A DNA stretch of 64,000 nucleotides from a virus. Position numbers and translations under genes: made by a program. The notes under the pieces were generated by a model, which had not been told where the DNA came from, did no database searches, and was given only the letters and a program-made list of their open reading frames with translations. The stretch covers positions 1 through 64,000 of the IMG/VR virus record IMGVR_UViG_3300008262_000188. One strand, written 5' to 3'. Positions 2,043-18,136 of the stretch are shown in pieces (position 1 is the stretch's first letter; each line of letters begins with the position of its first letter).

Positions 2043-2468
2043 TTATCTTAAAACTTGATTTAAAACTTCATGAAAACGCCAAAAAATTTTAAGTTCACTT
2101 TCTTGTTTTGTTAAAAACCCGGCCCAATCAATTTCATCTAATTGCAATTGGGTTTTCGGTACGACTAAATTCGTCAGTCCTATTTCCGATAAAGAATGAA
2201 TTTTTAATAAAAATAATATTACTTTTTTAACTATCTTTTTTTTGTTTTTATTATAGTATTCTACTTCGTATTTGGATGCAAATTTGGGATTATATAAACT
2301 TATTCCAATTTCTTCCTTGCATTCTCTTATTGCTGTTTCTTCAAACGTTTCTCCCTCATCAACTTGTCCTTTTGGAAAACTAAAGCTGTTATTATAAGAA
2401 GCGTTTGTAGGATGACAAAGAAGTACTTTGTTGTCAAATAAAAAAATAATACCAGCAGAAATCTTCAT
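2043..2468 (-). CDS. Nudix hydrolase
   Basis: A 141-residue protein with an intact Nudix box GQVDEGETFEETAIREC followed by KEEIGI (about residues 34-56), matching G-x5-E-x7-R-E-U-x-E-E-x-G-U. Such enzymes hydrolyse nucleoside diphosphates linked to another group; the substrate cannot be read from sequence. The stop codon of uvsY overlaps its ATG by four bases (ATGA type), so it is translated in the uvsY-Nudix-uvsW operon. Small Nudix proteins are common in T4-like phages (T4 NudE), but orthology is not shown here. Confidence 0.85.
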   Translation of the reverse strand: MKISAGIIFLFDNKVLLCHPTNASYNNSFSFPKGQVDEGETFEETAIRECKEEIGISLYNPKFASKYEVEYYNKNKKKIVKKVILFLLKIHSLSEIGLTNLVVPKTQLQLDEIDWAGFLTKQESELKIFWRFHEVLNQVLR

Positions 2469-2872
2469 GTCGTTTCTAATGTAATTATTTTAGTAAGATT
2501 AGTCATTCCGTATTGAGTGTCTCTAAAGTTAGCTTCGACCTTGCTGAGATATTCTACCAAAAACTCGTTATTTGCTATTTCATCATCAATTTTTAAGATA
2601 ATTTCATTCGTTGCTATGGATTCGCTGATAGTTTTAATGCTGAGAGTAACTGGCGATTCTTCTTCTAATTTTGCTTTAATGGTTTTGCTTGCTTTTTCTT
2701 TTGCTTTTTTGAGTTTTATAATTTGTTGTTTGTGATACATTAGCCGACCTACCCAATAATGTCTAACGGATGGTAGTGCCATTTGTGAGTCTTTAATGTT
2801 TAATTCATCAAATTTCAAAAACGTCTCAATTTTTTCATGATATTCTTGAAAAAGATTAGATGCATCAGCCAT
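2465..2872 (-). CDS. uvsY: UvsY-like recombination mediator
   Basis: A mostly helical, charged protein. T4 UvsY is 137 residues; from the ATG at 2872 this is 135. The reading frame can be extended to a TTG at 2893, but ATG 2872 gives the T4-like length and N-terminus. Recognisable features are the sequence MALPSVRHYWVGRLMYHKQQ near residues 33-52 and the Lys-rich helix that follows, as in UvsY, which loads the UvsX recombinase onto gp32-coated single-stranded DNA. Position upstream of uvsW supports the call. UvsX is not in this window. Confidence 0.8.
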   Translation of the reverse strand: MADASNLFQEYHEKIETFLKFDELNIKDSQMALPSVRHYWVGRLMYHKQQIIKLKKAKEKASKTIKAKLEEESPVTLSIKTISESIATNEIILKIDDEIANNEFLVEYLSKVEANFRDTQYGMTNLTKIITLETT

Positions 2873-2894: not shown

Positions 2895-3300
2895 ATAGGT
2901 TATTCAACAGCAAAAAAGGCTTAAAAGGTCTTTAAGTTCCGGTTATTCAGATTGAAGGAGGGAGGTCCCCCATTATTGGGATAACCTCCTGTCTTTGAAA
3001 TTCCGTATAAAACGAGTCTCAGTCGGGTTAACAAGCTTCAAAATTTTGCAAAGCAAAAAATATGCCCCCTCGGTTGTTCTGTAAGGGCTGGCTTGAGCGG
3101 TCCTGGCAATGGCCAAACAACGGTCACGCATAAAGCGCACATCGAGTAGTGTTTTTATTTATTAATCGCTGACTCCTGTTTATTTATCTCCCAACGAAGA
3201 CCCGCGTTGAAACGCTTTGGCTGGCACTAACAGCGACTGTTTTAAATTATGTTATTTTTTAAAAAAAGCAACATTTTGTTGTCTTTTTTAATTTTTAGTT
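2895..3300. ncRNA. Candidate structured non-coding RNA region
   Basis: About 400 bases without a convincing gene on either strand, and strikingly GC-rich compared with the surrounding DNA (34 of 60 bases are G/C at 3061-3120; 31 of 60 at 3181-3240). Complementary segments visible by eye: GGAGGT 2961-2966 with ACCTCC 2984-2989 enclosing CCC/GGG; GCCC 3064-3067 with GGGC 3085-3088; GTTGTT 3073-3078 with AACAAC 3116-3121, which would interleave with the previous helix as a pseudoknot; TCGCTG 3166-3171 with CAGCGA 3231-3236, enclosing CCAA 3191-3194/TTGG 3217-3220 and GCGTT 3204-3208/AACGC 3211-3215. It does not show RNase P, SRP, 6S or group I intron landmarks. Strand is undecided; a weak hairpin plus T-run near 2913-2935 would suit leftward transcription. 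Confidence 0.55.
3279..3284 (+). promoter_or_regulatory. TTGTCT -35-like box
   Basis: TTGTCT lies 36 bases before the ATG at 3315. It is one of a recurrent set of TTGWCW boxes at near-constant distance from start codons. Confidence 0.45.
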
Positions 3301-3314
3301 TGAAACTTTAGCCA

Positions 3315-3842
3315 ATGAATATCTTTTGCACCAATAACGATCCAGTGATATCAGCTCAAGAGCTTTGTGATCAGCATTGTAGGTCTAAAATGCAAATTGA
3401 ATCAGCAATTTTGCTTCAACATTGCTTTTCTAATCAAACATTACTGTCAGCTCCTTTGACTAAAAAAGGATCCCCACGTAAATCTGGCAAAGGGTATTAC
3501 AATCATCCATGTGCTGTATGGACAAGAGAGTCAACATCAAACTTTTTGTGGCTTTGTGATCATGCTTTAGAAATGTTTAATGAGCGAACCTATCGATGGA
3601 CAACTTCTAACGAGCATTTTACCAAATCATTTATAGAATGGTGCAAAAGCAATGTAGATAAAACAGAGCATTGTAAAAAAAGCGAATTGACTCCCTTTGC
3701 AATCGCTATTAACTTAGAATCTAAGTGCAGAAAAATTGCTGGTTTTGATCAACTTTCTACTATAGACAAATACAAACAATACATTCGGTTAGATAAAGCT
3801 TTTGCAACTTGGACAAAGCGCTCTAAGCCGTCTTGGTATTAG
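3315..3842 (+). CDS. Conserved phage protein, 'NHPCAVWTRES' family (pyrimidine-dimer glycosylase-like)
   Basis: A 175-residue soluble protein beginning MNIFCTNNDPVISAQELCDQ and carrying HCRSKMQIESAILLQ and YYNHPCAVWTRES. This pattern (MNIF..D.DP..cA...CD.H..KM..E.aQ...NHPc..W.R.S) is a widespread phage family that I recall being annotated as pyrimidine dimer DNA glycosylase-like; no catalytic proof is visible. It would cut beside UV-damaged bases if that annotation holds. It is preceded by a TTGTCT box at 3279 and stands alone. Confidence 0.55.
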   Translation: MNIFCTNNDPVISAQELCDQHCRSKMQIESAILLQHCFSNQTLLSAPLTKKGSPRKSGKGYYNHPCAVWTRESTSNFLWLCDHALEMFNERTYRWTTSNEHFTKSFIEWCKSNVDKTEHCKKSELTPFAIAINLESKCRKIAGFDQLSTIDKYKQYIRLDKAFATWTKRSKPSWY

Positions 3843-3987: not shown

Positions 3988-4251
3988 ATGACAAAAAGCT
4001 TTAAAGAAGCGTATAATGCAGCTCTTTCTTTTATATCGAACGATTGTTATACCAAAACGAACAGCATTAATGAGGATTCTGAGGGGGGTGCAACAAGTTC
4101 GTCGTTTGGCGATGGAATAGATTCAACATCTACAGCTTTTAGTGGTGACAATTACGCCAAAGATGATGCTAGAATTCCTTATGGTATATACGGAGGAGTA
4201 ATAACTCGTTATGGAATGAAAAAAAGCAGAAAAAAACGCAGAAAAAAGTAA
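3988..4251 (+). CDS. Small Ser/Gly-rich protein with basic C-terminus
   Basis: An 87-residue protein of unknown function. The N-terminus MTKSFKEAYNAALSF resembles the start motif shared by the putative internal head proteins at 8349, 12322 and 9555 (aromatic, acidic residue, Tyr, aliphatic), but no clear L/I-x-E cleavage site follows. The middle is Ser/Gly/Asp-rich and probably disordered. The last 14 residues are almost all Lys and Arg, suggesting nucleic-acid binding. It is followed after one base by the GIY-YIG-like gene. Confidence 0.5.
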   Translation: MTKSFKEAYNAALSFISNDCYTKTNSINEDSEGGATSSSFGDGIDSTSTAFSGDNYAKDDARIPYGIYGGVITRYGMKKSRKKRRKK

Positions 4252-4252
4252 A

Positions 4253-4669
4253 ATGGATTTAGGACATTGGATTTTAGCGGAGAATTTAAGCTTTAGTGAA
4301 GATGCATTCGGGTTTATTTATGAAATTACCAATAATGCCTTAGTTTGTCCAAAAAAGTACATTGGTAAGAAGCAATGCAGGTTTAAAGTAAAAAGAAAAC
4401 CACTTAAAGGAAAAAAGCGCAAACGTCTCGACACAAAAGAATCGGACTGGAAAACATATACTGGGTCATCTAAAGAGCTTAATGAAGATATTAAAAAATA
4501 CGGCAAAGAAAACTTTAGCTTTGTAATTTTAGAGTGGTGTTTTTCTAAATTCGAATTAGGATATAAAGAAATAAAAAGGCAAATCCAAGAAGACGTTTTA
4601 TTAAAAGAAGATTATTATAACGGAATAATAAATTGCCGTTTGGGTCGTGTTCCTAAGAACTTTAAATAG
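4253..4669 (+). CDS. GIY-YIG-type endonuclease (SegE-like)
   Basis: A 138-residue protein with GFIYEITN near residue 20 and KKYIGKKQ near residue 35, the two halves of the GIY-YIG nuclease core, followed by the Lys/Arg-rich segment and DWKTYTGSSKELNEDIKKYG typical of the phage Seg-like subgroup. These are free-standing homing endonucleases or small DNA-cutting enzymes in T4-like phages. It sits between two unknown genes with no gap on either side, so it is co-transcribed. The target site cannot be predicted. Confidence 0.7.
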   Translation: MDLGHWILAENLSFSEDAFGFIYEITNNALVCPKKYIGKKQCRFKVKRKPLKGKKRKRLDTKESDWKTYTGSSKELNEDIKKYGKENFSFVILEWCFSKFELGYKEIKRQIQEDVLLKEDYYNGIINCRLGRVPKNFK

Positions 4670-17633: not shown

Positions 17634-17684
17634 AGGACTTGATTAACATTTGAATTATGAGTTTTTCAACAATTTTTATTTTAT

Positions 17685-18136
17685 TGGAGATGAGGGGAAT
17701 CGAACCCCTGTCCATATAACCTAAGCTAAAAGGTCTTCACACGTTTGGATACATTCAACATTTCAGCCACCTTACGGTGACAAAGACAAAAGGCTGCATG
17801 GTTGTATCAACCGATTTTTATGTCTGCCTGCACAAGTGAGAGGTCTTGTACTACCTCTGTATCAGTTTTTCTATGATCTCTAACAGTTCATCAAAACCTC
17901 TGCGTTTCAAAATAGATTTAGAGGATCCTCTATTAGGCTCTTAGGCTTCGAGAGCACAAGCTTCTTCAACGTCGATGAGAAACTCATCAGCGTTGTTGAA
18001 GATGTAATCAGCTTCAGCTAAGAGATCAGAAGTATTGTCTTCTGCGTTTAGTGTTCAATCGATTTTTAAAGAGGCCATCGATTAACCTCTACATGCGCTT
18101 TTAGTTTCAACTATATGTCGAAACCAGGGCACCCCC
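17685..18136 (-). ncRNA. ssrA: tmRNA (one-piece) with long tag reading frame
   Basis: The 5' end GGGGGUG (18136-18130) pairs with CAUCUCC (17692-17686) to close a 7-bp acceptor stem with A at 17685 as discriminator; CCA is not encoded. GGUUUCGAC near the 5' end and GGGGUUCGAUUCCCC at the 3' end are the standard tmRNA D- and T-arm features. An H-type pseudoknot before the tag (GAGG with CCUC, and AAUCGAU with AUCGAUU) matches PK1 of E. coli tmRNA. The resume codon GCA at 18045-18043 follows UAAAC, equivalent to UAGUC in E. coli. The frame runs 34 codons to UAA at 17943-17941 and begins AEDNTSDLLAEADY, ending VEEACALEA. Trans-translation with phage-supplied tmRNA is the expected role. Confidence 0.93.

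Follow-up and report, generated by a model that had tools for sequence, protein, structure and literature searches.

Comparative evidence for a pseudoknotted structured RNA family beside uvsY in one clade of T4-like phages

What is encoded by the apparently gene-free DNA that lies upstream of a uvsY-like gene in an uncultured T4-like phage? The window analysed here comprises 64,000 nucleotides (positions 1-64,000) of the record IMGVR_UViG_3300008262_000188, the parent virus record being 69 kb, and carries 16 tRNA genes and a tmRNA. A sequence-only reading had proposed a structured RNA at 2895-3300, in a GC-rich stretch of an AT-rich phage, with a nested two-helix domain at 3166-3236 and two interleaved helices (3064-3088 and 3073-3121) that suggested a pseudoknot. 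The claim on composition held exactly (34 of the 60 positions at 3061-3120 are G or C), and the 300-nt element as a whole has a GC content of 46%, whereas the window averages 32%. A GC content as high is reached by only 1.3% of the 300-nt stretches of the window, the richest being the tRNA cluster. A check of genes and reading frames in the window found no convincing gene overlapping the RNA element within 2895-3300. Comparison with relatives shows that 2937-3238, on the minus strand and thus that of uvsY, encodes a conserved structured RNA, its transcription being inferred. The claim of a structured RNA was thereby upheld with two refinements, namely a core of 2937-3238 and assignment of the minus strand as that transcribed. 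The locus is arranged as follows.

2465..2872, minus strand: uvsY-like gene (phrog_231, E=0.0056, weak by itself), adjoining uvsW, downstream of the RNA and on the same strand
2937..3238, minus strand: conserved structured RNA core, 5' end near 3238 and 3' end near 2937, found at the same place in 34 fetched homologous loci
3243..3270, minus strand: putative promoter region (TTGAC, about 16 nt, weak -10), the -35 box being a degenerate TTGCTT in the window
3988..4251, plus strand: small divergent gene, conserved, which flanks the RNA on its other side and falls into one and the same neighbour cluster in 27 loci

Downstream of the RNA in the window lie the UvsY-like gene, a nudix gene and a UvsW-like helicase gene, and in relatives the uvsY-uvsW block continues with proteins that we take, from reading of their sequences, to be gp55, gp47 and gp46. 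The window also carries a SegE-like GIY-YIG endonuclease gene at 4253-4669 (plus strand), which is kept at the same place in approximately 27 relatives. As a separate observation, the tmRNA of this genome with 16 tRNA genes (17682-18136, minus strand) has an unusual tag prediction, EADYIFNNADEFLIDVEEACALEA, and that of one relative (L064:4603-5036) has a predicted tag with the unusual ending YELAA.

Homologues were collected by several routes. The first relative (L002) came from a search with the uvsY protein, and the region upstream of its uvsY aligns with the whole element. When IMG/VR was scanned for exact matches to three different conserved segments, and later to a fourth, essentially one common set of records was returned, always at the same locus; L015, L027 and L030 were rejected as chance matches to one pattern. 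A uvsY-profile search gave 80 loci, 34 of which are matched by the core covariance model at E<=3e-24, as is the window. In all carriers (the 34 fetched IMG/VR loci and the window) the RNA lies between the small divergent gene and the uvsY-uvsW block, and it was never found away from uvsY. Where UvsY is at least 64% identical, the RNA is present in every locus whose contig reaches far enough; the contigs of L098 and L105 start too close to uvsY to be informative. In sister clades with UvsY 46-56% identical, the RNA is absent beside uvsY, another ORF usually being found 50-240 nt from that gene, and it was not found elsewhere either in ten records of the sister clades, which range from 26 to 218 kb and include fragments. 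This distribution, in one UvsY clade and not in its sisters, indicates a clade-specific gain, or loss in the others.

Outside these records, searches of cultured phages, plasmids and E. coli genomes yielded no homologue, and GTDB genomes scanned by pattern gave no convincing one. When 398 genomes from a single bacterial phylum were scanned with the covariance model, using stricter filters and without a positive control, nothing was returned. Eighteen pattern hits on bacterial contigs, with approximately ten expected by our own chance estimate, were rejected as the rest of the RNA was not matched (13 bits at best with nhmmer; nothing with the covariance model), and LR756504.1 (E 0.02 over 45 nt), which also had no covariance-model match, was rejected as an AT-rich chance similarity. 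No RNA at this locus is described in the open-access literature searched. Within the family the RNA element has a mean pairwise nucleotide identity of 79%, compared with 69% for the uvsY gene.

Folding of the single sequence gave weak z values on both strands (-1.1 for plus and -1.9 for minus), and as such folding is unconvincing by itself the structural proof is a comparative one. Nine helices, the pseudoknot included, are backed by covariation. The elements of the structure, in order from its 5' end, are given below.

3166..3236, minus strand: 5' domain, in which P1 (3231-3236/3166-3171) encloses P2a (3219-3221/3200-3202), P2b and P2c; both-side changes in 9 of 15 pairs
Inside P1, minus strand: P2b (3214-3215/3204-3205) and P2c (3196-3199/3188-3191)
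3143..3165, minus strand: conserved A/U-rich single-stranded linker, then invariant CUCGA (alignment A2)
3126..3138, minus strand: P3 hairpin; both-side changes in 3 of 4 pairs in alignment A5
3073..3121, minus strand: pseudoknot helix, 3116-3121 (GUUGUU) with 3073-3078 (AACAAC); 99.4% of cells paired
3104..3115, minus strand: P4 hairpin, UGGC/GCCA; both-side changes in 3 of 4 pairs
3032..3095, minus strand: P5, 3091-3095 (CAAGC) with 3032-3036 (GCUUG); variants in relatives
3064..3088, minus strand: P6, 3083-3088 (GCCCUU) with 3064-3069 (GGGGGC), crossed by the pseudoknot
2949..2994, minus strand: 3' domain, P10 (2983-2988/2962-2967) and a tentative P11 (2989-2994/2949-2954); alignment uncertain

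Across 25 aligned sequences, 96.1% of the cells of the 52-pair structure are paired, and both sides have changed in 18 of the 52 pairs, compared with 8.9 +/- 1.6 in shuffled controls (none of 500 reached the observed value) and 2-9 when the partners were slid. The covariation score of the 25 homologues was 0.228, as against 0.117 for the shuffles and 0.03-0.06 for slid partners. The shuffle control leaves sequence relatedness unremoved; the slid control keeps that relatedness and still separates clearly. In 31 model-aligned sequences, both sides have changed in 13 of 25 core pairs and 99.7% are paired, and since the pseudoknot was omitted from the model this alignment was not fitted to it. Compensatory changes within the pseudoknot include U-A to C-G in L115 and L093, and C-G, U-G and U-A at another pair. 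P5 occurs in relatives as CAAAC/GUUUG and UAAGC/GCUUA, the third pair of P6 is C-G or U-A (20 and 10 rows respectively) and its fourth is A-U in L086, and by our reading of the sequences P1 has been wholly rebuilt, yet remains complementary, in L034 and L110. The 3' domain is less well supported: P10 and P11 are paired in 93% and 78% of cells, with no double changes counted, and P10 is conserved and hardly covaries, being rebuilt with G-C pairs in L093 and L110. A CGU/ACG hairpin near 3005-3014 was dropped as it is broken in relatives, as was an anti-Shine-Dalgarno role for the segment CCUCCUUC, which is not conserved. The nested domain read earlier is P1 enclosing P2a-c, and the interleaved helices correspond, down to their end coordinates, to P6 and the pseudoknot. 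The long unpaired stretches of the RNA are nearly invariant, as would be expected for contacts with a partner.

The boundaries of the RNA were examined by conservation and by search for signals. In 25 of 28 loci a sigma-70-like TTGAC precedes P1 at a constant spacing, and a weak -10 (GAYATT/TAAATT) comes after it, so that a start just before the first helix is predicted; the window's own promoter region, with its degenerate -35 box, was not scored by the promoter scan. Conservation rises at P1, just downstream of this promoter, and falls after CCGGAA, approximately 65-110 nt before uvsY, the values being 0.54-0.73 upstream, 0.74-0.95 inside the RNA (a single variable hairpin, at 0.59, being the exception) and 0.50-0.62 between the 3' end and uvsY. 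No conserved intrinsic terminator was found after the RNA, so its 3' end is not settled. Other genes (0.6-2.2 kb) separate the RNA from uvsY in L014, L023, L028, L031, L033 and L034, and on the opposite side extra genes set the RNA apart from its other neighbour in L013, L019 and the window; with genes intervening on either side, the RNA behaves as a separable unit.

Several further features of the flanks were observed. An AT-rich hairpin with T-runs on both strands (AAAAAAAGCAACATTTTGTTGTCTTTTTT; window 3258-3290) overlies the promoter region of the RNA and is adjoined by an inserted phrog_624 DNA-binding gene (3315-3842, plus strand), which L002 does not have. In L013, L014, L023, L028, L031, L033 and L034, the RNA is flanked on one or other side by different genes, which belong to families c23 (373-666 aa) and c56 (approximately 212-231 aa) or are unclustered, and from these varied neighbours the borders of the RNA appear to be insertion-prone. 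In addition, a G-run (AAGGGGCGGGGAG-like) followed by a T-run recurs between the RNA and uvsY in L012, L017, L020, L021, L023 and L024, though not in the window, and is possibly a promoter start or a 3'-end signal.

The explanation that we favour, while rating it no better than an even chance, is that this is an independently transcribed, trans-acting non-coding RNA gene of approximately 300-330 nt, specific to the clade. Its sequence family, location, structure and lack of coding are shown. In the absence of transcript data, we only infer that the RNA is transcribed, that this happens early, that the transcript is separate from the uvsY mRNA and that it acts in trans. A sigma-70-type promoter of its own would drive transcription of the RNA on the minus strand, probably at an early stage of infection. 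The fold would comprise a stem domain at the 5' end, a pseudoknotted domain in the centre and a GC-rich hairpin domain at the 3' end. The RNA would most likely then act in trans by binding a protein or the translation or transcription machinery, the partner being unidentified, as a scaffold (possibly an RNP scaffold), regulator or decoy. We favour this reading because of the putative promoter, the bounded conservation, the slower evolution relative to uvsY, the invariant unpaired stretches and the separation from uvsY, and the presence of the RNA in all 34 fetched loci of the UvsY clade that reach its position lends support. Against this reading stand the constant linkage to uvsY, which a cis role would also predict, the missing conserved terminator, the degenerate -35 box of the window and the lack of transcript data.

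The most serious rival is that the RNA is a cis-acting, ligand- or protein-sensing 5' UTR of the uvsY-uvsW-gp55-gp47-gp46 block, controlling recombination and late-transcription genes. This remains a real possibility: the RNA is always upstream of uvsY on the same strand, in most loci approximately 65-110 nt from its start, and no terminator lies between the two. However, conservation drops to background in that interval, leaving no conserved expression platform, an unrelated gene, in place of uvsY, follows the RNA in six loci, and the conserved T4-like gene order accounts equally well for the fixed location. With no demonstration of a separate transcript, a leader role nevertheless cannot be dismissed. 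The large pseudoknotted fold and nearly invariant unpaired stretches would also fit a catalytic RNA, or a highly diverged RNase P RNA, group I/II intron or self-cleaving ribozyme. We regard this as very improbable, as neither the window nor ten relatives' loci gave a credible match to Rfam, permissive thresholds included, and no gene is interrupted. In the window, Rfam 15 covariance models gave no match at the gathering threshold and only sub-threshold permissive hits (E 0.45 or worse), GOLLD, ROOL and HEARO being among the models without a match, and nine relatives' loci gave no match at E<=1; the element likewise lacks a tmRNA model match and tag frame, the genome's tmRNA lying elsewhere (17682-18136). 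This supports the earlier exclusion of RNase P, SRP, 6S, tmRNA and group I intron. That a protein-coding or DNA-level element mimics RNA covariation can be almost completely ruled out. Short ORFs do overlap the element in some members, but all six frames of the 300-nt element contain 4-7 stops on average, anchor spacings and loop lengths shift by one or two bases and not by multiples of three, and no conserved reading frame was found across the relatives' RNA loci; against a DNA-level element, the compensatory changes (U-A to C-G, wholesale replacement of P1) are RNA-like. The claim that the region holds no gene was thus upheld, no frame being kept across relatives. The earlier reading of a structured, non-coding, pseudoknotted RNA is likewise supported, none of the refutation tests run having gone against it and covariation proving strong and not absent; structure and lack of coding are shown, and the transcript is inferred.

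A further rival is that a structured transcript of the uvsY locus forms or stabilizes an RNA-DNA hybrid and primes replication, in the manner of T4 oriF with a fold like that of ColE1 RNA II. T4 oriF is ori(uvsY), where a transcript forms a persistent R-loop that is unwound by UvsW (PMC3016281), and it relies on a middle promoter dependent on MotA, together with an unwinding element, no sequence-specific RNA being involved (PMC3016281). ColE1 RNA II is a folded transcript that serves an R-loop. In favour, the RNA occupies the oriF-equivalent place beside uvsY and uvsW and is followed by AT-rich DNA. A promoter-like TTGAC box and the RNA element lie upstream of uvsY, the transcript itself being inferred. 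Against an origin, two relatives (217 and 124 kb) show no inflection of GC- or AT-skew at the element (a skew shift is seen at several, not all, T4 origins), R-loop formation at T4 oriF is independent of specific sequence (PMC3016281), and sister phages with uvsY-uvsW do without the RNA. The present RNA thus resembles the oriF transcript in its location at uvsY, adjoining uvsW, but differs from oriF, with its MotA middle promoter and no sequence-specific RNA, and has no skew support; it resembles RNA II as a folded transcript whose structure could serve an R-loop, but has no sequence relation to it in the plasmid collection and no evidence of priming. We therefore consider this origin unlikely, and much the same applies to a bolder reading in which the oriF principle of transcript, R-loop and removal by UvsW is joined to a conserved pseudoknotted RNA governing how the hybrid forms.

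Closest in kind to the present RNA are GOLLD and ROOL, which differ from it in size, location and sequence (PMC12286853). They too are phage-encoded pseudoknotted non-coding RNAs of unknown function from tRNA-rich genomes (PMC12286853), and they form homo-oligomeric RNA cages. However, they measure 659 nt (ROOL env-120) to more than 800 nt (many GOLLD), whereas the core here, at approximately 300 nt, falls short of the approximately 600-800 nt or more typical of them, and the present RNA neither lies beside the tRNA island nor matches their covariance models (nor that of HEARO). The PhiKZ non-coding RNA candidates from Grad-seq are likewise phage-encoded and derive from UTRs or intergenic DNA in a large phage (PMC8545117), but the PHIKZ298 RNA is of approximately 100 nt with two stem-loops and is thought to be processed from a 3' UTR (PMC8545117).

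The RNA thus represents a new pseudoknotted phage RNA family with strong support, intermediate in size (approximately 300 nt) and without a match to known families. It is restricted to one clade of T4-like phages and has been retained by every member examined, and so must pay its way. Its covariation-supported structure offers concrete targets for mutational and pull-down tests, and its position at uvsY-uvsW allows direct tests of a link to replication, to recombination or to the early-to-late switch.
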